Part shown: positions 4,083 to 55,610 of the stretch, piece after piece | Position numbering within the stretch: the first letter of the stretch is position 1 | Layout of the letters: each line of letters starts with the position of its first letter | Origin: Lebetimonas natsushimae | Lineage (GTDB): Bacteria; Campylobacterota; Campylobacteria; Campylobacterales; Nautiliaceae | DNA: 64,000 bases | Assembly (NCBI RefSeq): GCF_002335445.1 | Contig: NZ_BDME01000001.1 | Coordinates: 620,001-684,000, forward strand | Direction: 5' to 3' | The notes under the pieces: model-generated | Database searches by the model: none | Seen by the model: only the letters and a program-made list of their open reading frames with translations | Told to the model about the DNA's origin: nothing | Program-made: the position numbers and the translations under genes

Positions 4083-5902
4083 TGTATTATGAAATAGCAA
4101 TTCTCAGTACTCCAAATATATTTACTTATAAATCCGATAAAGTTTATAAAAAAGGTGATGTTGTTGAAATTCCTTTAAAAAATAAAATAACTTATGGGTA
4201 TGTTTTAAAGGAAGTGGATAAACCTAAATATGAATGTAAAGAAATAATAGGTAAAAAATTCAATTTTAATGAAAATTATCAAAAAATTATTGATTTTATA
4301 AGTAAGTATTATTTCTGTTCAATCGGTGAAGCGGCAGGGCTGTTTTATTGGAAAATGGATAATGGAAAATGTAAAATTGATAATGAAACGTTAAAAATTA
4401 AAAATAAAAAATGTAAGGTTGATATAAATTTAACTGATAAACAAAGAGAGGCTTTGGAATTTTTGAACAGCAAAGACGCATCAATTCTTTTCGGGGATAC
4501 CGGAAGCGGCAAGACTGAAATTTATATAAAACTTATTGAAGAAACTATAAATCAGGGCAAAAAAGCAATTTTTTTACTGCCGGAGATTGCAATAACCTCC
4601 CAGATAGAAAAAAGGCTTAAAAAATATTTCAAAGAAACTCTGGCTATTTGGCACAGTAAAATCACTAAAAAGAAAAAAGAGGAAATTTTAAATAATTTAG
4701 ATAAAATTAATGTAATAGTGGGAGCCAGGAGTGCGCTTTTTTTACCAATTGAGAATTTAGGGCTAATTATTGTTGATGAAGCACACGATGATTCTTATAA
4801 ATCAGAACAGACTCCAAAATATAACGCAAAGGATTTGGCTGTATATTTTGGTAAAGAATTTAAAGCAAAAGTTGTTCTTGGAAGCGCAACTCCGCTTGTA
4901 AGTGATTTATACAAATTCCCGCATTTCAGGCTTAAAGGAACATTTTACAATACTAAAAAGATAAAACATTTTAGAGAAACTTTTGATGAATTCACAATAA
5001 GAAAAATTTCAGAAAAATTAAAACAAAACAAGCAGATTATTGTATTTGTACCAACCAGGGCACATTTTAAATTTATGATTTGTAAAAACTGCGCTGAATC
5101 AGTTAAATGTAAAAACTGCGACGTTTCCATGAGTCTGCATAAAGATAAAAGAGCATTGGTGTGTCATTACTGCGGATATACGCAGCCTATTCCCAAAATT
5201 TGCCCAAACTGCGGATGGAATGAATTCTTGAATGAAAGAAAAGGTACAAGTGAAATAGCAGAAGAATTGAAAGAAATTTTCCCAAATGCAAAAATAGAAA
5301 AGTTTGACAGGGATATAATCACTTCAAAAAGCAGGATTGATAAAGTGCTTAAACGATTTGAGAAGAGAGAAATTGATATTTTGGTCGGTACCCAAATGCT
5401 TGCCAAAGGGCATGATTATCCGGATGTGGCTTTAAGTGTTATCGTGGATATTGATTTTGTATTAAATGCACCTGATTACAGGGCAAGGGAAAGGGCGTTT
5501 GCATTAGCTAAACAGGTTGAAGGCAGGGCGGGCAGAAAAGAAGATGGGGAAGTTATAATAATTACTCAAAATCAGGAATTTTTTAACAGGAGCTATGAGG
5601 AATTTTTTAATGAAGAAATGGAATTTAGAAAAAGTCTTGAATATCCACCGTTTTCAAGGCTTGCAAAAATAGAATTTTCAGATAAGAAAAAAGAAACTGC
5701 CAAAAATAATTTGGATGAATTGATTAAGTGTGTAGGAGATAGACCTGAACTTATTGGGTACGGGGAAGCTCCGATTTTTAAACTTAAAAACAGATACCGC
5801 TATTATGCTTTGTTTAAAGGTAAAAATTTGCATAAAATTATCTATACCTGCATTGATTTAACAAAAGCAAAAGTGGATATGGACCCGGTTAATTTTCTTT
5901 AA
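4082..5902 (+). CDS. priA: primosomal protein N' (replication restart helicase)
   Basis: A superfamily-2 helicase that reloads the replisome at stalled forks. At 606 residues it is shorter than the roughly 730 of E. coli, mainly because the N-terminal DNA-binding region is compact, as in other Campylobacterota. Walker A GDTGSGKT is at residues 138-145, with DEAH in VDEAHDD. A zinc module with eight Cys (CKNC..CKNC..CHYC..CPNC) is followed by the second helicase lobe ([10 protein letters not shown]). Residues 91-113 ([11 protein letters not shown] onward) lie between the DNA-binding and helicase domains and are encoded by a copy of the A-rich repeat. The last 14 bases overlap the convergent SulP gene. 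Confidence 0.96.
4349..4415 (+). repeat. A-rich repeat, in-frame copy inside priA
   Basis: The DNA reads as tandem variants of AATGGAAAAT, GTAAAATTGATAATG and AAAAATTAAAAAT. It is translated in the priA frame as a Lys/Asn-rich linker with the peptide MDNGK. The same units appear in intergenic copies and inside thiL and the E2 gene. Confidence 0.6.
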
Positions 5903-7960: not shown

Positions 7961-7995
7961 AATATAAAATTGATAATGTAAAATGGAAAATTTAA
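7961..7995 (+). repeat. A-rich repeat copy upstream of argD
   Basis: The sequence contains AAATTGATAATGTAAAATGG followed by AAAATTTAAG, matching the unit seen elsewhere. It occupies the 5' leader of argD, immediately before its GGAAG ribosome site, in the same orientation as both flanking genes. Confidence 0.5.
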
Positions 7996-8005
7996 GAAAG
8001 GAAGA

Positions 8006-9166
8006 ATGATGAATTATCTATTAAATACTTACAATAGATTCAATGTTGAATTTGTAAAAGGCAAAAATGCAACTTTATGGGATAAAAATGAAAACGATTA
8101 TATAGATTTTACAAGTGGTATAGGAGTTGTGAGTGTAGGTCATGGAAATGAGAGACTAAGCAGTGCTATATGTGAACAGGCTAAAAATATTATTCATATT
8201 TCAAATCTTTACAGAATTCCACCCCAAGAAAAATTAGCTGAAAAGCTAGTTAAAAAAAGTGGTTTAGGTAATGCCGGGGTGTTTTTTTGCAACAGCGGGG
8301 CTGAAGCGAATGAAACAGCTTTGAAGATTGCCAGAAAATATGGCGAAGTTAACGGGGAAATTAAAAAATATAAAGTAATTACACTTGAAAATTCTTTTCA
8401 CGGAAGAACCATTTCAACCCTGAAGGCTACAGGGCAGCCTAAATTTCATCAATATTTCGGGCCATTCCCTGATGGGTTTACTTATGCAAAAAATATAGCA
8501 GACATTGAAAATAAAATAGATGATAAAACAGTGGCAGTGATGCTTGAACTGATTCAGGGGGAAGGCGGAGTTAATCCATTTGACAGGGATGAAGTAAGAG
8601 ACTTAGCTAAAATGTTAAAGGAAAAGGATATTTTGCTTATTGTTGATGAGGTTCAAACCGGAATTTACAGAACAGGTGAATTTTTGGCAAGTAATTTATA
8701 CGGAATAAAACCTGACATTATTACTCTTGCAAAAGGCCTTGGCGGAGGAGTACCAATCGGTGCGGTAATTACTACTTTAACAGATGTTTTAAAACCCGGA
8801 GACCACGGCTCTACTTTTGGAGGAAACTATTTAGCAACTAGGGCGGCAATTGAGGTTATAGAAATTTTAGATGAATATAAAAAAAGCAAAAAACTTGACA
8901 AAGTGATTAATTATTTTGACGATAAACTGGTTGAGATTGCAAAAGAATATCCTGATAAATTTGATTGTGTCAGCGGATATGGGCTTATGAAGGCATTGAA
9001 ATGCCACAGCAGTGAAATAAGGGATGAAATAGTAAAAAAAACTTTTGAAAAAAAAGTTTTGGTATTAAAAGCTGGAAGTATATCAGTTAGATTTTTGCCG
9101 CCGCTTACAATCACTAAAGAGGAAATTGATGAAGGATTTGATAGATTAAAGGCTGCTTTATGTTAA
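8006..9166 (+). CDS. argD: acetylornithine aminotransferase
   Basis: A class III PLP-dependent aminotransferase that converts N-acetylglutamate semialdehyde to N-acetylornithine in arginine synthesis; it may also serve succinyl-diaminopimelate transamination in lysine synthesis. The 386 residues are normal. Visible features are the N-terminal substrate region (DFTSGIGVVSVGH), the phosphate-binding GAEANE, the cofactor Asp in LLIVDEVQTG, and the PLP lysine in TLAKGLGGGVPIGA. ATG 8006 and 8009 are both possible starts behind GGAAG. The last 7 bases overlap the next gene. Confidence 0.95.
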   Translation: MMNYLLNTYNRFNVEFVKGKNATLWDKNENDYIDFTSGIGVVSVGHGNERLSSAICEQAKNIIHISNLYRIPPQEKLAEKLVKKSGLGNAGVFFCNSGAEANETALKIARKYGEVNGEIKKYKVITLENSFHGRTISTLKATGQPKFHQYFGPFPDGFTYAKNIADIENKIDDKTVAVMLELIQGEGGVNPFDRDEVRDLAKMLKEKDILLIVDEVQTGIYRTGEFLASNLYGIKPDIITLAKGLGGGVPIGAVITTLTDVLKPGDHGSTFGGNYLATRAAIEVIEILDEYKKSKKLDKVINYFDDKLVEIAKEYPDKFDCVSGYGLMKALKCHSSEIRDEIVKKTFEKKVLVLKAGSISVRFLPPLTITKEEIDEGFDRLKAALC

Positions 9167-10408: not shown

Positions 10409-10414
10409 TATAAT
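10409..10414 (+). promoter_or_regulatory. -10 box for sdhA
   Basis: TATAAT stands 28 bases before the sdhA ATG in a 103-base gap. A ribosome site AAAGGAG lies 5-10 bases before the ATG. No -35 consensus is seen. Confidence 0.5.
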
Positions 10415-10441
10415 ATAATTAACAATATATAAAGGAGTGAT

Positions 10442-12148
10442 ATGAAAGTTGATGTTTTAATTGTCGGAGCGGGAGGAGCCGGACTTTATGCGGCTTTGAG
10501 TGCTGCAAAAGAAGCAAAAGGGCTTAATATTGCGGTAATGAGCAAAGTTTATCCTACACGTTCACATACAGGGGCCGCTCAGGGCGGAATAAATGCTGCC
10601 CTTGCTAATGTTGACCCGAGTGATAATGAAGAACTTCATACATTTGACACCATTAAAGGAAGCGATTATTTGGCAGACCAGAATGCGGTTAAATATATGT
10701 GTTATGAAGCTCCGAGAATTATCAGGGAAATGGAGCATATGGGTGTGCCTTTTAGTAGGCTGAATAACGGGAAAATCGCCCAAAGACCTTTTGGAGGAGC
10801 AAGCAAAGACAGAACTTGTTACAGTGCCGATAAAATGGGACATGTAATGCTTCATACTTTATATGAACAGTGTATAAAAAATGATATTAAATTTTTAAAT
10901 GAATGGTTTTTATTGAATATTGCCCATAATGGTAAAAGAATTCAGGGAGTTAGTGCAATTAACATTGCAACGGGTGAAATTCAGTTTGTTAAAACAAAAG
11001 CGGTAATTTTAGCTACCGGAGGACACAGCAGGATTTACTGGGGATATACATCAAATGCCCTTGGTTGTACAGGAGACGGAACGGCAGCAGTACTTAGAGC
11101 CGGGCTTCCTCTAAAAGATATGGAATTTTTACAGTTTCACCCGACAGGTCTTAGAAAATCAGCTATTCTTGTAACTGAGGCTGCAAGGGGTGAGGGTGGT
11201 CATCTTGTAAATAATGTGGGTGAGAGATTTATGAAAAAATATGCACCTGAAAAAATGGAACTAGGTCCCAGGGATTTAGTTAGTAGAAGTATTATGCAGG
11301 AAATCAGAGAAGGCAGGGGCTTCAGAGATGAAGAGGGAAGGGAGTATGTTCATCTTGATTTAACTCATTTAGGAGAGAAAAAAATAAAAGAGAGACTTCC
11401 TCAAATTAGGGAACTTGCAATTGATTTTGAAGGGATTGACCCAATTAAAGAGCCAATTCCAATTAAACCTACGGCCCATTATGCAATGGGTGGAATTGAT
11501 ACTAATGTTAAGTGTGAAACTCCGCTTGAGGGACTTTATGCAGCTGGGGAAGCTCAGTGTGTAAGTGTTCACGGTTCAAACAGACTCGGAGGAAATTCAC
11601 TTCTTGATATTGTTGTGTTCGGTCACGTGGCAGGGCTTGAAGCCGTAAGATATGCAGAAGGTGCCGATTTTGCAAAAGGTGGGACTGAGATAATAGAAAA
11701 TGAAAAAAGAAGAATAGAGGAACTTATGAATAAAGAAAGTAAAGAAACTTTGGGTGATTTGAGAGCTGAACTTGGTGAAATTATGTTTAAACATTTCGGG
11801 GTATTCAAAAATGAATCTGAAATGCAGGAAGGTTACAATAAACTTAAAAATTTAATTGAAAGAGCGCATAATAATTTAGGGGTTGAAGATAAATCAAAAG
11901 TGTTTAATCTGGATTTGCAGGCAACTCTTGAATTTTTCAATTTACTTGATATTGCGGATGTTTTAGCTTATGCATCTCTTCAGAGAAAAGAAAGCAGGGG
12001 TAGTTTTTACAGAGACGATTATCCAAAAAGAGATGATGAAAATTATCTGTATCATTCAGTTATTACAAGAAACGCTGATGGAAGTTATGATTATAAAAAA
12101 GGTGAAGTCGATATCAGCTTGTACGCTCCGGCTGAGAGAAAATACTAA
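10442..12148 (+). CDS. sdhA: succinate dehydrogenase/fumarate reductase flavoprotein subunit
   Basis: The catalytic FAD subunit that interconverts succinate and fumarate; in an autotroph with a reductive TCA cycle the reductive direction is likely. The dinucleotide fold [11 protein letters not shown] begins at residue 9. His42 in [10 protein letters not shown] is the expected covalent FAD site. EAARGEGG and HYAMGG give active-site residues, and [10 protein letters not shown] is the C-terminal FAD contact. The 568 residues fit the SdhA/FrdA family. There is no twin-arginine signal, so it is unlike the periplasmic methylmenaquinol:fumarate reductase (MfrA) of Wolinella. Partners are the iron-sulfur gene at 12272 and the CCG gene at 13228, separated from it by an antisense tRNA gene. 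Confidence 0.93.
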
Positions 12149-12159
12149 TAAATTAAAGA

Positions 12160-12236
12160 TGGTCTCCCGGGCGGGATTCGAACCCACGACCTTCGGATTA
12201 GGAATCCGACGCTCTATCCTGCTGAGCTACCGGGAG
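12160..12236 (-). tRNA. tRNA-Arg (anticodon CCT)
   Basis: A full 77-base cloverleaf on the minus strand. The acceptor CTCCCGG pairs with CCGGGAG, followed by A73 and an encoded CCA. The D arm is GCTC..GAGC. The anticodon stem TCGGA/TCCGA encloses the loop TTCCTAA, giving anticodon CCT for AGG codons. The T arm is GTGGG TTCGAAT CCCGC. Its promoter (TATAAT at 12254-12249 on the minus strand) overlaps the sdhB promoter. It lies antisense between sdhA and sdhB. Confidence 0.97.
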
Positions 12237-12243
12237 AAGAGGA

Positions 12244-12255
12244 ATATAATTATAT
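12244..12255. promoter_or_regulatory. palindromic divergent -10 element between tRNA-Arg and sdhB
   Basis: ATATAATTATAT is a perfect 12-base palindrome that gives a TATAAT box to both the tRNA (minus) and sdhB (plus). The tRNA 5' end is 13 bases from the last base of its box. The sdhB ribosome site AAAGGA follows at about 12260. The core is identical to the one between uvrB and the coiled-coil gene. Confidence 0.5.
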
Positions 12256-12271
12256 CAAAAAAGGATTAAGA

Positions 12272-13231
12272 ATGGAAAAAATAAGTTATATTGCTAGAAT
12301 AAAAAGATATAATCCTGAAAAAAATGAGAGTTACTGGCAAGATTTTGAAGTAGAGGTAGAAGATACTTTAACTGTACTTGAACTTCTGATGCATATAAAA
12401 GATAAAATTGATAGTAGCTTAACATTCAGAGCATTTTGTAGAAGTGCAATTTGTGGAAGCTGTGCTATGATAATTAATGGTAGAAGCGGGCTAGCTTGTA
12501 AAATTCAGGCAAAAGACAGAATAAGAAATGGTGTAATAAAAATTGAACCGCTTCAGCATTTACCTGTAATTAAAGACCTTGTAGTAGACCAGGAGCCGGC
12601 ATTTGATAAACTCAAAAAAGTTAAACCTTACCTTATACCGGATCCTAAAAAAGTGCCTGATAATCTAAAAAGCGAATCTCTTGTAAGTCCAGAAGAGTTT
12701 GCACTATATGATAAACAGACTGATTGTATTTTATGTATGGCATGTTACGGTCAATGTAATGCACTTGAAGGTGATGAAAAATATCTTGGACCTTTCCAAC
12801 TAACAAAAGCTTTTAGATTTATAATGGATAGCCGTGATGGAATGGACGTGGAAGAGAGAATAAAATTTGTAGAAGAAAATGGAATTTATGAATGCGTACA
12901 GTGTCAAATGTGTCTGGCTGCATGTCCCAAAGGAATTAAACCGGCAGAAGATATCTTACAGCTTAGACGTATAGCTAAAGATGTAGGGGAGGATAATCCC
13001 GCAACTAGAAGAGCAAAATTCTGGTTTCAGACTGTATTTGAGACAGGACAGATTGATAAATATAATTTACCTGAAATTGCATTAGAAGATGAAGGTGAAA
13101 AAATAAAAGAAAATATGGAAGAAGAGTTTAGAGAAAGAGGTTTAAAAGAAGATGAGTTTGGACCTAAGCCGTTTGAAGGAATAAAAGATTTTCAAAACTT
13201 TATTAAAAAACTGCAAAAGGAACTTAAATGA
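12272..13231 (+). CDS. sdhB: succinate dehydrogenase/fumarate reductase iron-sulfur subunit
   Basis: This subunit carries electrons between the flavoprotein and the CCG-domain subunit. The N-terminal ferredoxin fold holds Cys56, 61, 64 and 76 for the [2Fe-2S] cluster (CRSAICGSCAM). The C-terminal domain has two clusters of four Cys, at 152, 155, 158, 162 and 208, 211, 214, 218 (CILCMACYGQC, CVQCQMCLAACPK). At 319 residues it is longer than E. coli SdhB (238). The extra C-terminal part is acidic and Lys-rich, and may bind the SdhE-type partner. The stop overlaps the next ATG by 4 bases. A decayed paralog lies at 14612. Confidence 0.94.
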   Translation: MEKISYIARIKRYNPEKNESYWQDFEVEVEDTLTVLELLMHIKDKIDSSLTFRAFCRSAICGSCAMIINGRSGLACKIQAKDRIRNGVIKIEPLQHLPVIKDLVVDQEPAFDKLKKVKPYLIPDPKKVPDNLKSESLVSPEEFALYDKQTDCILCMACYGQCNALEGDEKYLGPFQLTKAFRFIMDSRDGMDVEERIKFVEENGIYECVQCQMCLAACPKGIKPAEDILQLRRIAKDVGEDNPATRRAKFWFQTVFETGQIDKYNLPEIALEDEGEKIKENMEEEFRERGLKEDEFGPKPFEGIKDFQNFIKKLQKELK

Positions 13232-14055
13232 AAAAAATAGGAATTTATCCGGGATGCTGTTTTCAGGGGGCTGATGTTCATAATTATGATATAACAGTTA
13301 GATTTTTAGAAAATATGGGAGTTGAAGGAATCCTTTTAGACAGAGCCGCCTGTTGCGGAGGGGGTGTTATTGATGAAACCAATAAATTGGTGGTTTATGG
13401 GCTTAATGCGAGAAATATTGCACTTGCAGAAGAAAAGGGCGTTGATTTGTATACGCCTTGTAACACCTGTTATATGATTATTGCAAAAACAAAATTAGCT
13501 CTTGATGCAGATCCAGAATTAAAAGAAAAAATCAATAAAATTTTAGCTGATGAGGGGCTTGAATACAAGGGTGAGGCTAAAATTTATCATACCCTAAATT
13601 TAATCAGGGATTTTGTAGGACTTGATGAATATAAAAAAAGAATTAAAAGACAAATCAGCGGAGTTAAAGTGGCCCCTTATTACGGATGCCATGTTTTAGC
13701 TCCAAATGAAGTGGCTCTTGATGATGTGGATAACCCTACAATTTTGAAAGAAATACTTGAACCTCTCGGAGTTGAAGTAATAGAAGGTTATAAAAACGAA
13801 AATACATGCTGCGGGTATCATGCCACATATACAGATAAAGATCAAAAAGAAAGGCTTTCAATCAAACCGCTTGAGGGTGCAAAAGAAGCCGGAGCCGATA
13901 TAGTGGCAACCCCGTGTCCTCTTTGCCATAAAGCAATGGATGGAATGGAAGAGCCGATTCTTCAGGTAACACAACTTATAAACGTGGCCTGTGGAATGAG
14001 TCCTGAAGAGACTGCGATCAATCTAAACAAAACAGAAGTTAAACTATCAATTTAA
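13228..14055 (+). CDS. CCG-domain subunit of succinate/fumarate complex (SdhE/HdrB-like)
   Basis: A 275-residue protein with two CCG (cysteine-rich) domains. The first contains YPGCC, ACCGGG and PCNTC; the second contains YYGCH, TCCGYH and PCPLCH. Such domains hold unusual iron-sulfur clusters in heterodisulfide reductase HdrB and replace the membrane anchors in type E succinate:quinone reductases. The 4-base overlap with sdhB and the order A-B-E support this role rather than a free HdrB. There is no obvious membrane helix, so amphipathic membrane contact is inferred from the family. This SdhE is unrelated to the small flavin-assembly factor of the same name. Confidence 0.9.
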   Translation: MKKIGIYPGCCFQGADVHNYDITVRFLENMGVEGILLDRAACCGGGVIDETNKLVVYGLNARNIALAEEKGVDLYTPCNTCYMIIAKTKLALDADPELKEKINKILADEGLEYKGEAKIYHTLNLIRDFVGLDEYKKRIKRQISGVKVAPYYGCHVLAPNEVALDDVDNPTILKEILEPLGVEVIEGYKNENTCCGYHATYTDKDQKERLSIKPLEGAKEAGADIVATPCPLCHKAMDGMEEPILQVTQLINVACGMSPEETAINLNKTEVKLSI

Positions 14056-14064
14056 CTTCTGCTT

Positions 14065-14625
14065 ATGAATTATGAGATTATAGAAAAAATTGGAGAGGGT
14101 AATAAGGGAGAAGTTTTTAAAGTAAAACTTGATAATGGTAAAATTGCAGCTCTCAAATGGTTAAAAACAGATTTGGCAAAAAAAGAATATGAATTTTTAA
14201 AAATTTTAAATGGATTTTATGCTCCAAAACCTTTTTTTATTGGAAAACACTATTTTATAATGGAATTAATTGAAGGAAGGCCATTAAAAGAGCTTATTGG
14301 TACAAAAGAGTATTATGAAACTTTAAAAGAAGCATTAATTGGAGCATATGAACTGGATTTAAAAAAAATTTACCATACCCAGCTTGGTAGATTTTATCAT
14401 GTTATAAGTACAAAAAAAGGTATTAAATTTTTAGATTTTGAAAGGGCAAAACTTACTGAAAATCCAAGAAATTTTTTACAAATAATCGGATATTACTTGC
14501 AAAGGGATAAAAAATTTGATAAAAAACTTCTTAATGAGATAGTTGGGGTTTATAAAAAAGATAAAGTTAGAGGATTAGATTTGGCAATTAAAGTGTTAGA
14601 TGAATGTATTGATGAAACGTTTTAA
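14065..14625 (+). CDS. predicted small Ser/Thr kinase-like protein (COG2112-like)
   Basis: A 186-residue minimal kinase-like fold. A glycine-rich loop GEGNKGEV lies at residues 10-17, with Lys31 in ALKW. The hinge is MELIEGRPL. The catalytic loop is HTQLGRFYHV (104-113) instead of HxDxxxxN, and the metal motif LDFERA is at 123-128. From memory, the H.QL.R..HV plus DFERA pattern matches the mainly archaeal COG2112 predicted kinases. The catalytic Asp of ordinary kinases is absent. It begins 9 bases after the CCG gene with no good ribosome site, so it is probably coupled. Its end overlaps the pseudogene at 14612. The substrate is unknown. Confidence 0.7.
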   Translation: MNYEIIEKIGEGNKGEVFKVKLDNGKIAALKWLKTDLAKKEYEFLKILNGFYAPKPFFIGKHYFIMELIEGRPLKELIGTKEYYETLKEALIGAYELDLKKIYHTQLGRFYHVISTKKGIKFLDFERAKLTENPRNFLQIIGYYLQRDKKFDKKLLNEIVGVYKKDKVRGLDLAIKVLDECIDETF

Positions 14626-15135
14626 TAAAAACATACATTTTGATGAATTTGAAGTTGAATATAAAGAAGATGAAACTGTTTTGGAATTGCTTGATAGAGT
14701 GAAAATTATTAAAGATTTGGTGGTAGATCATTCAAACTTGGAAGAAAAAATAAAAAAAACAAAAGCCTGGTTTATTGATGCAGGTAAGGAAATTCAATAT
14801 CCAGAAGAACTCAAAAGTATGAAAAGCAAACTGATTGTATTTTATGTAATTTATGTTTGCTGAATGTGAGGCACTTGATTATGACAAACATTTTGCAGAA
14901 TCATGGGTATTTACTAAAATTTTTAAATATGTAAATGATAGCGGGAACAGGTGAAGATAAACAAAAAAGAATTGAAATAGCAAAAGACAACAGATTTTAT
15001 AATTGCATAAACTCTCAAAAATGTGTTATGATTTGTCCTAAAGGAATGGCAAGTGCTTATGATATAAAAGCACTTCAAAACATGCATTTAAATACACCAT
15101 TTAATAATGAAATGAATTTTTTTAAAGGAGAATGA
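14612..15135 (+). pseudogene. decayed second sdhB (iron-sulfur subunit) copy
   Basis: The remnant starts MKRFNKNIHF and aligns with sdhB (EDETVLELLDRVK versus EDTLTVLELLMHI). It then jumps straight to IIKDLVVDHSN, so the whole [2Fe-2S] cysteine segment (about 50 residues) is missing. The frame at 14612 ends at 14863. The match continues in a second frame (14833: DCILCNLC), a third (14859: AECEALDYDKHF..FKYVNDSGN) and back to the second (14935-15135: RFYNCINSQKCVMICPKG). At least three frameshifts and one deletion are present, so no functional subunit can be made. It is likely a relic of a duplicated sdh operon. Confidence 0.85.
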
Positions 15136-15684: not shown

Positions 15685-16535
15685 AAGAAGAATTTTTTAT
15701 AAAACAGTTTAAAAACAGATTTATCGGAGATGACGGAGCGGTAATAAACCTACGGAAAATAGAAAATGGAAAATGGAAAATAAATAATAAGCAATTGGTG
15801 GTAGCGAGCGATTCGTTTTTCGAGGATATTCATTTTAAAAGAGAGTGGTTTGGTCTGGATGAGATAAGCTATAAAGCAAGTTTAGTTAACATCAGTGATA
15901 TAATCGTTATGAATGCGAAGCCAAAGTATGCTTTAATAAATATAGGATTTCCTAAAAATCTGAGTTTAAAGGATATTGAATTACTTGCAGATGGATTTAA
16001 AAAAGCTGCAGAAGAATATAATTATGAAATTATCGGCGGAGATACTATTAAGAATGAGAAAATAGCAATTTCCATGACTTTTATAGGGGAGAGTAAAAAA
16101 CCGATTTTCAGAAAAGCGAAATTAAATGAATTTGTAGCATATACGGGAAATTTGGGAAATGTAAAAAGGGATTTATATACTCTGCTTAGAGGAGGAAAAA
16201 TATCTAAAAATTCTAAATTTGTAAAACCAAAACTAAGAGATGATTTTTTTTATAGAGCAAGCAGATATATTACCGCAGCCTGTGATATCAGTGACGGACT
16301 TTTTAAAGAACTGGAGAGAATCAGTAATATTTCAAAAATAGGATTCGAATTTTTTAAGAAATTTGATAGAACTGTGGGTTGCAGCGGGGAAGAATATGAA
16401 ATACTTTTTACTTTTCCAAAAAAAAATTTAAAAGCAATTGAAAATATTTCAAAGATTACACGCACACCCATAACCGTTTTTGCTAAAACCAAACGGGGAA
16501 AATATAAAAATATTTGCCCGGAAAATCATTTTTAA
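15681..16535 (+). CDS. thiL: thiamine-monophosphate kinase
   Basis: It phosphorylates thiamine monophosphate to the active diphosphate. At 284 residues it is a little short. GDDGAV (16-21) and the Asp-rich loop VVASDSFFEDIHF bind Mg-ATP; NISDIIVMNAKP and GGDTIK are typical. Residues about 24-36 (RKIENGKWKINNK) replace the usual short turn and are encoded by the A-rich repeat. The gene sits in a string of overlapping or adjacent plus-strand genes (PAS-thiL-EI24-truD-cation efflux). thiS, another thiamine gene, is 4 kb away on the other strand. Confidence 0.92.
   Translation: MKEEFFIKQFKNRFIGDDGAVINLRKIENGKWKINNKQLVVASDSFFEDIHFKREWFGLDEISYKASLVNISDIIVMNAKPKYALINIGFPKNLSLKDIELLADGFKKAAEEYNYEIIGGDTIKNEKIAISMTFIGESKKPIFRKAKLNEFVAYTGNLGNVKRDLYTLLRGGKISKNSKFVKPKLRDDFFYRASRYITAACDISDGLFKELERISNISKIGFEFFKKFDRTVGCSGEEYEILFTFPKKNLKAIENISKITRTPITVFAKTKRGKYKNICPENHF
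15753..15790 (+). repeat. A-rich repeat, in-frame copy inside thiL
   Basis: The core is AAAATAGAAAATGGAAAATG followed by GAAAATAAATAATAA. It is read in the thiL frame as KIENGKWKINNK. The peptide resembles [10 protein letters not shown] in PriA and MENGKLKNEK in the E2 protein, as expected if the same DNA repeat entered each gene in the same frame. Confidence 0.6.
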
Positions 16536-29897: not shown

Positions 29898-29971
29898 TGG
29901 AAAATTGAAAATGTAGAATGGATAATTGAGTTAAAATCTTTAATTTTCTATTTTCCATTATACATTATCCA

Positions 29972-29974
<3 letters not shown>
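29896..29974. repeat. inverted pair of A-rich repeat copies
   Basis: Between the convergent M50 and dnaJ genes, one copy (TAATGGAAAATTGAAAATGT, then AGAATGGATAATTG) follows the M50 stop on the plus strand. A second copy (TAATGGATAATGTATAATGG, then AAAATAGAAAATTAA) follows the dnaJ stop on the minus strand. In both the TAA of the stop overlaps the first unit. The two arms could pair as a long imperfect hairpin and may also act as a bidirectional terminator-like structure. Confidence 0.6.
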
Positions 29975-31114
<1,140 letters not shown>

Positions 31115-54732: not shown

Positions 54733-54750
54733 TATTTCTCCTTGTATAAT

Positions 54751-54797
54751 TTTTATTATCAATTTTACATTATTCATTCTACATTTTACATTTTTTA
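54751..54797 (-). repeat. A-rich repeat copy between lipA and pfkA
   Basis: On the minus strand the lipA stop runs into AAAAAATGTAAAATGTAGAATG and AATAATGTAAAATTGATAAT, ending just before the pfkA ribosome site. It is the same unit and the same orientation (sense, directly after a stop) as the other intergenic copies. Confidence 0.55.
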
Positions 54798-55610
54798 TAG
54801 CTTATCCGCATAATAACTGCTTCTAACGAGTTCTCCGCTTACAACAGCACTAAATCCCAAACTTAATGCCAAATTTTCTAATTCTTTAAATTCTTCTTTT
54901 GAATAATATTTTTTAACCGGATAATGACGGGGCGAGGGCTGTAAATATTGACCGATTGTAATTTGACTCACACCTGCGCTTTTTAGATCAATAAGAGTTT
55001 TTTCAATATCTTTAAAGCTTTCCCCAAATCCTACAATAAGAGATGATTTTGTAATTTTAAATTTTGAATAATATTCTAAAACTTTTAGAGATAATTCATA
55101 GGATGATTTTGGTTTCAATCTTTTATGAAGCTTCTTAACTGTTTCAATGTTATGAGCTAATTTATATGCGGGAGATGAAACTAATAAATTAAGAGCATTT
55201 ATATCCCCCTGAAAATCGGGAGTCAGTGCTTCTATTTTTGTATCTGGATTAATTTCATTTACTTTTTCAATTACCCTGCGCCAGTGATTGCTTCCGAAAT
55301 CTTTCAAATCGTCTCTGTCAACCGAGGTTATTACCACATATTTTAGTTTCATATCCTTTACTGCATTTGCTATTTTTATTGGTTCTTTTTCATCAATTTT
55401 TAACGGTTTTCCTTTGTTAACTCCGCAAAATCTGCAGTTTCTTGTGCATACATTTCCTAAAATCATAAATGTTGCGGTGCCTCTTGCAAAGCATTCGCTG
55501 ATGTTTGGGCATTTTGAAGAATAACAAACCGTATTAATTCCATATTTATCAATTATATTTTTTGTAACTGAAATTACTTCTTTACTCGGTGCTAATACTT
55601 TAGGTTTCAT
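54795..55610 (-). CDS. lipA: lipoyl synthase
   Basis: A radical SAM enzyme that inserts two sulfurs into the octanoyl group on lipoyl domains. The 271 residues contain the auxiliary cluster Cys set (CYSSKCPNISEC) and the radical SAM motif CTRNCRFC. IGQYLQPSPRHYPVKKYY and the C-terminal SGELVRSSYYAD are also typical. It overlaps lipB by 11 bases. The only lipoylated protein evident in the window is the E2 of the neighbouring PDH operon. Confidence 0.96.
   Translation of the reverse strand: MKPKVLAPSKEVISVTKNIIDKYGINTVCYSSKCPNISECFARGTATFMILGNVCTRNCRFCGVNKGKPLKIDEKEPIKIANAVKDMKLKYVVITSVDRDDLKDFGSNHWRRVIEKVNEINPDTKIEALTPDFQGDINALNLLVSSPAYKLAHNIETVKKLHKRLKPKSSYELSLKVLEYYSKFKITKSSLIVGFGESFKDIEKTLIDLKSAGVSQITIGQYLQPSPRHYPVKKYYSKEEFKELENLALSLGFSAVVSGELVRSSYYADKL

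Follow-up and report, generated by a model that had tools for sequence, protein, structure and literature searches.

An antisense tRNA-Arg(CCT) gene between sdhA and sdhB in the Nautiliaceae: probable division of an sdhABE operon and a candidate redox operator before sdhB

The window analysed here, i.e. the whole 64-kb stretch of Lebetimonas natsushimae DNA, contains a gene cluster for a complex of the succinate dehydrogenase/fumarate reductase kind, in which a tRNA gene stands between the first two genes. The cluster comprises the following features:

10409..10419, plus strand: two overlapping TATAAT boxes, presumed -10 of sdhA, about 25 nt before the ATG (recurs in relatives)
10442..12148, plus strand: sdhA, flavoprotein subunit of succinate dehydrogenase/fumarate reductase (TIGR01812 above cut-off; PF00890, PF02910)
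12160..12236, minus strand: tRNA-Arg(CCT), single copy, CCA encoded (ARAGORN, Rfam)
12245..12250, plus strand: TATAAT, divergent from the tRNA -10 box and overlapping it, the sdhB -10 proposed by an earlier sequence-only reading; weak candidate (6/6 in 2 of 19 sequences)
12249..12254, minus strand: TATAAT, -10 box of the tRNA, 12 nt from it (6/6 in 19 of 19)
12261..12265, plus strand: AAGGA, presumed ribosome-binding site of sdhB (from the sequence)
12272..13231, plus strand: sdhB, iron-sulfur subunit, 319 aa (TIGR00384, 235 against a cut-off of 88)
13228..14055, plus strand: sdhE-like gene (HdrB-like, CCG domains), presumed quinone-side subunit (profile match)
14065..14625, plus strand: small RIO/kinase-like gene, conserved in the cluster (profile match, loci of relatives)
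14600..15123, plus strand: sdhB2, a decayed second iron-sulfur-subunit gene (tblastn with the intact sdhB2 of relative G002)

Exactly one tRNA was called by ARAGORN in the window, a tRNA-Arg with anticodon CCT, and Rfam RF00005 gave 70.2 bits (cut-off 29) at the same place; the gene folds as a cloverleaf with a CCU anticodon, its CCA is read directly in the window sequence, and no second copy is present among the genome's 40 tRNA matches. With these two calls and the profiles of the flanking genes, the antisense position between sdhA and sdhB put forward by the sequence-only reading is confirmed. The tRNA lies 11 nt from the sdhA stop and 35 nt from sdhB and, since AGG accounts for 38 of the 134 arginine codons counted in eight window genes, it reads a common codon. 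The antisense geometry was rejected as unusual in itself, since tRNAs antisense between two co-directional open reading frames are found at 4 of the genome's 21 tRNA loci, the sdhA-sdhB one included, which is close to the expectation from random orientation; the frames in this count were called mechanically, the 88-aa right-hand one of locus L132 being doubtful. Elsewhere in the genome, a tRNA-Lys(CTT) at L131 (G000:C7:62500-66600) is placed antisense between co-directional frames and leaves gaps of 31 and -4 nt, tighter than those around tRNA-Arg(CCT), and an arginine tRNA at L136 (G000:C1:807600-811700) was called with the anticodon GCG, where ACG is usual.

The flavoprotein reaches 789.6 bits against TIGR01812 (cut-off 567.3), as expected of SdhA/FrdA proteins. 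In SdhE, PF02754 is matched in two stretches, i.e. two CCG domains, and its gene adjoins sdhB, in the manner of E-type SdhABE complexes. The order sdhA, sdhB, HdrB-like sdhE is also that of the non-classical E-type sdhABE of Wolinella and Campylobacter, in the sections of the source that treat it (PMC2680327), and a fumarate/succinate chemistry in common with these complexes would be expected, here from the genes alone. Nevertheless, the three genes are not joined: Wolinella sdhABE, the 8-methylmenaquinol:fumarate reductase, is described in those sections as one operon, whereas in the window the tRNA divides sdhA from sdhB. The window SdhA also differs from the MFR of Wolinella and Campylobacter in that it bears no twin-arginine extension, its N-terminus starting directly at the FAD fold, and in that the scores of the MFR models remain below their cut-offs (NF042982, 606.8 against 1100; NF042952, 177.6 against 600; NF042965, 141.2 against 500). 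A further difference is that it retains the histidine of a 10-residue motif, a residue with a role in covalent FAD attachment. Regarding the family itself, two Fdr/Sdh complexes have been described in the Nautilia profundicola genome, one of them, GAmH_1096-1094, being very probably the same locus, as we infer; the text describes this complex and, in the part at hand, does not mention a tRNA between them (PMC2628731). Two Fdr/Sdh complexes are likewise listed for Nautilia PV-1, again with no tRNA between the genes mentioned in the corresponding excerpt (PMC10092268).

To compare the locus within the family, the genome itself and 40 relatives were searched with SdhB, ARAGORN was run on the loci found, and the junctions were measured by script. 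The comparison set consisted of 22 genomes, namely 21 Nautiliaceae and G032, which belongs to the Nautiliales but carries a different family label. In 18 of the 22, i.e. in all the genomes whose sdhA-tRNA junction is assembled, sdhA is immediately followed by the tRNA-Arg(CCT) in antisense orientation, so that the position of the tRNA is not a chance match; sdhB comes next in 17 of these 18, the exception being G002, where the tRNA is followed by the kinase-like gene. A nineteenth genome, G016, contributes a contig that begins within the tRNA and runs on into sdhB, and no sdhB match was obtained in G011, G017 and G018, whose assemblies are 57, 80 and 63% complete, respectively. An sdhA of the window type (E 1e-180 or better) occurs in 7 of 249 genomes of the phylum, all of them Nautiliaceae, and the gene order common to the family loci searched across is argD-tolC-sdhA, tRNA, sdhB-sdhE-kinase-(sdhB2)-PAS-thiL-truD. 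The synteny comparison suggested with the sequence-only reading shows, then, an arrangement that is ancient within the family. In that reading, antiquity combined with independent transcription of sdhA and sdhB was held to lessen the interest of the locus; the former stands at the level of the family, and the latter is inferred, with the strength given below.

Outside this arrangement, sdhA and sdhB are joined. In one close outgroup, the Campylobacterota MAG L083 (JAADDX010000083.1; 73, 54 and 68% identity in SdhA, SdhB and SdhE), 10 nt lie between the sdhA stop and the sdhB ATG, without a tRNA. The same joined state, with no tRNA, is found in each of 17 other outgroup loci, as well as in the second sdhABE operon of the window genome (L069) and its G002 counterpart (L070). 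The outgroup tRNA-Arg(CCT) genes are located elsewhere, their neighbours at 9 loci examined out of 30 fetched being EF-G-like (6), HU-like (2) and, near one of them, gapA-like, as named by eye from the open reading frames. For these reasons, it is most simply supposed that the tRNA moved into the sdhABE operon in the family's ancestor, the insertion being derived and not ancestral, and the earlier proposal of a tRNA inserted into a former sdhAB(E) operon is borne out by the outgroup and paralogous operons.

The gap between the tRNA and sdhB falls into two classes, of 32-46 nt in 8 genomes and of 94-110 nt in 10. In the long-gap class, a predicted extended -10 is situated about 15-24 nt before the sdhB ATG, with the palindrome AAGATAAAWTTTRTCTT upstream of it. 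This palindrome is centred about 25-35 nt before the -10 hexamer, i.e. close to the -35 position or slightly above it, as would suit either a repressor or an activator. A pattern search with palindrome and -10 gave 25 matches in 15 of the 22 genomes, compared with 1 match for the reversed control. Nine matches precede sdhB, 8 a gene with a desulfoferrodoxin/superoxide-reductase (SOR-like) domain, and 3 ferredoxin-thioredoxin-reductase (FTR) genes, while the other five comprise three facing the tRNA, one before a P-II gene and one before a divergent open reading frame; these gene identities come from Pfam on one example of each kind. Since the palindrome was first seen before sdhB, its matches there (9 of the 10 long-gap genomes, the right arm being broken in G003, and 0 of the 8 short-gap ones) are not independent evidence; only those of the SOR-like, FTR and msrB genes are, the last being a palindrome-only case upstream of msrB in one genome, G014. 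When the promoter part was omitted, 16 matches were found against 1 for the control, and several of the sites are within coding frames (G003:C13, in the kinase-like gene; L150, L151, L153, L157 and L159); these were left out of the promoter count. Ahead of sdhA, none of 17 genomes has the palindrome, the best matches there carrying 3-6 mismatches, a level also given by shuffles; most of the 17 show a TATAAT-like box some 25 nt ahead of the sdhA ATG. The palindrome is not enriched in the window (5 matches at up to 2 mismatches, 2.4 expected), and it is absent from the window's own tRNA-sdhB gap, where the best match has 6 mismatches. The palindrome-promoter layout does occur in the same genome before tandem ferredoxin-thioredoxin-reductase genes (L152, G000:C1:187769-187816), which points to a candidate redox regulon there, though with sdhB outside it. 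The long-gap class does not form one clade in the SdhA tree, which is weakly resolved, does not date the change between long and short gaps, and leaves out G016 (a 79-residue SdhA fragment), G017 (no sdhA of the type) and, outside the sdhA search, G011 and G018. In the literature searched, as far as the accessible parts of it extend, no description was found of this palindrome or of a tRNA inserted in sdhAB. The candidate redox operator before sdhB in the relatives is, in our opinion, the most interesting part of the system.

The subunits of an enzyme usually share a single transcript. At this locus, it is probable that the tRNA insertion in the Nautiliaceae ancestor split sdhABE into separately transcribed sdhA and sdhBE units. 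The sole tRNA-Arg(CCT) gene, bringing a promoter of its own, would have become placed between sdhA and sdhB in antisense orientation; the sdhA unit would possess its own promoter and end tail-to-tail against the tRNA, and a promoter in the tRNA-sdhB gap, pointing away from that of the tRNA, would drive sdhB, sdhE and the genes behind them. In the long-gap genomes (10 of 18) this would be the dedicated extended -10 with its operator-like palindrome and, because the palindrome is shared with SOR-like, FTR and msrB genes, sdhBE is probably under redox or oxidative-stress control in these genomes, and sdhA is not. The statement of the sequence-only reading that sdhB has its own promoter is thus very probably correct in at least the 10 long-gap genomes, where extended -10 and palindrome are predicted. 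In the window genome, with its short gap, sdhB might be expressed either from the symmetrical overlapping -10, acting bidirectionally, or by read-through from sdhA, which is possible because no terminator is visible and only 11 nt lie between sdhA and the tRNA; the existence of two units is uncertain here, the symmetrical -10 being the one feature that indicates it. Transcription of the tRNA and that of the sdh genes might interfere with each other.

The sdhA-tRNA gap is of importance for the alternative that sdhA, sdhB and sdhE still form one transcript, the polymerase reading through an antisense tRNA that would be a tolerated passenger. Among the 18 genomes this gap measures 5-240 nt, and in 14 of them it is at least 25 nt long; 11 of these 14 fold better than shuffles (z at or below -3 on one strand or both), and those of L003, L012 and L016 fold no better. 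The hairpins are largely unrelated in sequence, seven having a marked 7-nt periodicity, and a clear T tract is missing from most. Differing hairpins at one place suggest that a terminator-like or buffering element was acquired more than once. In the window, no terminator-like site was found at 11900-12500 and the 11-nt gap holds no hairpin, and an intrinsic terminator at the junction was rejected accordingly. This last result is what a single transcript would lead one to expect, as are the gaps of merely 5-12 nt in 4 of the 18 genomes and the lack of a good sdhB -10 in G004 and G007, where no plus-strand box in the gap exceeds 4/6 and an sdhB promoter is consequently not evident. Nevertheless, the dedicated promoter and palindrome conserved before sdhB in 10 of 18 genomes, as well as the hairpins in 11 of the 14 testable gaps, speak against one transcript, and a strong opposing promoter, such as that of the tRNA, would be expected to obstruct transcriptional read-through. 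We regard this alternative as unlikely. Concerning the gaps themselves, that of L010 (G004) is the 240-nt one and shows G-rich runs on the plus strand, unlike its relatives. Stretches of 7-nt periodicity are also observed in the window at 4341-4406, 7961-8026, 15746-15816, 29901-29986 and 54736-54811, some of them hairpin-forming; one is within a priA-like and another within a thiL-like frame (names by eye), where it adds about a dozen residues with respect to G002, around KIENGKWKINNK.

The tRNA -10 is a perfect TATAAT in all 19 sequences, G002 and G016 included, at 7-12 nt upstream of the gene, and the window shows a predicted promoter of the sigma-70 type, TTTCCA-18-TATAAT with TG. The minus-strand box at 12254-12249 shares the palindrome ATATAATTATAT with the plus-strand TATAAT at 12245-12250, so the window has the overlapping divergent -10 boxes of a putative bidirectional promoter. 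The divergent hexamers overlapping at 12245-12254 resemble the pseudo-symmetrical bidirectional promoters described in E. coli, as presented in the available portion of the source (PMC12825309), but differ from them in that a tRNA is served from one of the two sides and that relatives have not kept the symmetry. In fact, the plus-strand box is complete only in the window genome and G032, with 5/6 or 4/6 in the rest; it looks like a by-product of the palindromic tRNA -10 in this lineage, and is for this reason weak evidence for an sdhB promoter. The box overlapping the tRNA -10 that had been assigned to sdhB does exist, but it is a weak candidate for an sdhB promoter. The perfect double TATAAT of the window and the E. 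coli precedent (PMC12825309, in the same portion) would also suit a single symmetrical promoter for tRNA and sdhB, in which the direction chosen by the polymerase would tie sdhB dosage to tRNA transcription. Such an arrangement is very improbable: both strands are perfect in just 2 of the 19 sequences; in 10 of 18 genomes, sdhB has a -10 that stands apart, some 55-70 nt from that of the tRNA, and that accompanies the palindrome of another gene set; and a regulatory link can hardly be founded on a promoter that a single lineage possesses. The proposal that subunit balance is tied to tRNA transcription consequently found no support. Finally, although tRNA genes are common integration sites and this one has moved relative to the outgroups, its being an integration site or other mobile-element scar was rejected as the least credible account, with neither an integrase nor a foreign gene observed there and with flanks, from argD to truD, common to the family loci searched.

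A split of sdhABE by the tRNA would have several implications. The insertion can be placed on the family tree, and would have broken the one-transcript link of the sdh subunits in the whole family, the relatives displaying different later solutions: a short symmetrical promoter, a separate promoter with an operator, or loss of sdhBE. Should transcript data bear the split out, the locus would constitute a natural experiment on a respiratory complex tolerating the loss of operon coupling, and would provide a candidate redox regulon among deeply branching Campylobacterota from vents.

The loss of sdhBE is seen in G002 (L064, G002:C1:1349000-1358000), where sdhB and sdhE have disappeared right after the tRNA, and sdhA, the tRNA, the kinase-like gene and sdhB2 remain. 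There, sdhB2 is the sole iron-sulfur gene left beside sdhA in the cluster, a complete second sdhABE operon also being present. In the window it is sdhB2 that is damaged, its 2Fe-2S cysteine stretch being gone and the frame bearing an in-frame stop and a frameshift, and the gene is open in many relatives. The decayed sdhB2 of the window and the sdhBE deletion of G002 led to the tentative and rather doubtful idea that the insertion may have released the electron-carrying half of a complex II from its flavoprotein, so that SdhA, as a separately made subunit, could serve two partners, SdhB-SdhE (with the oxidative-stress operator in several lineages) and SdhB2, lineages having then lost one of them. 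As for its distribution, 13 of the 21 family genomes contain a short sdhB2, which is usually located after the kinase-like gene in this cluster; from the cluster of G001 it is absent.
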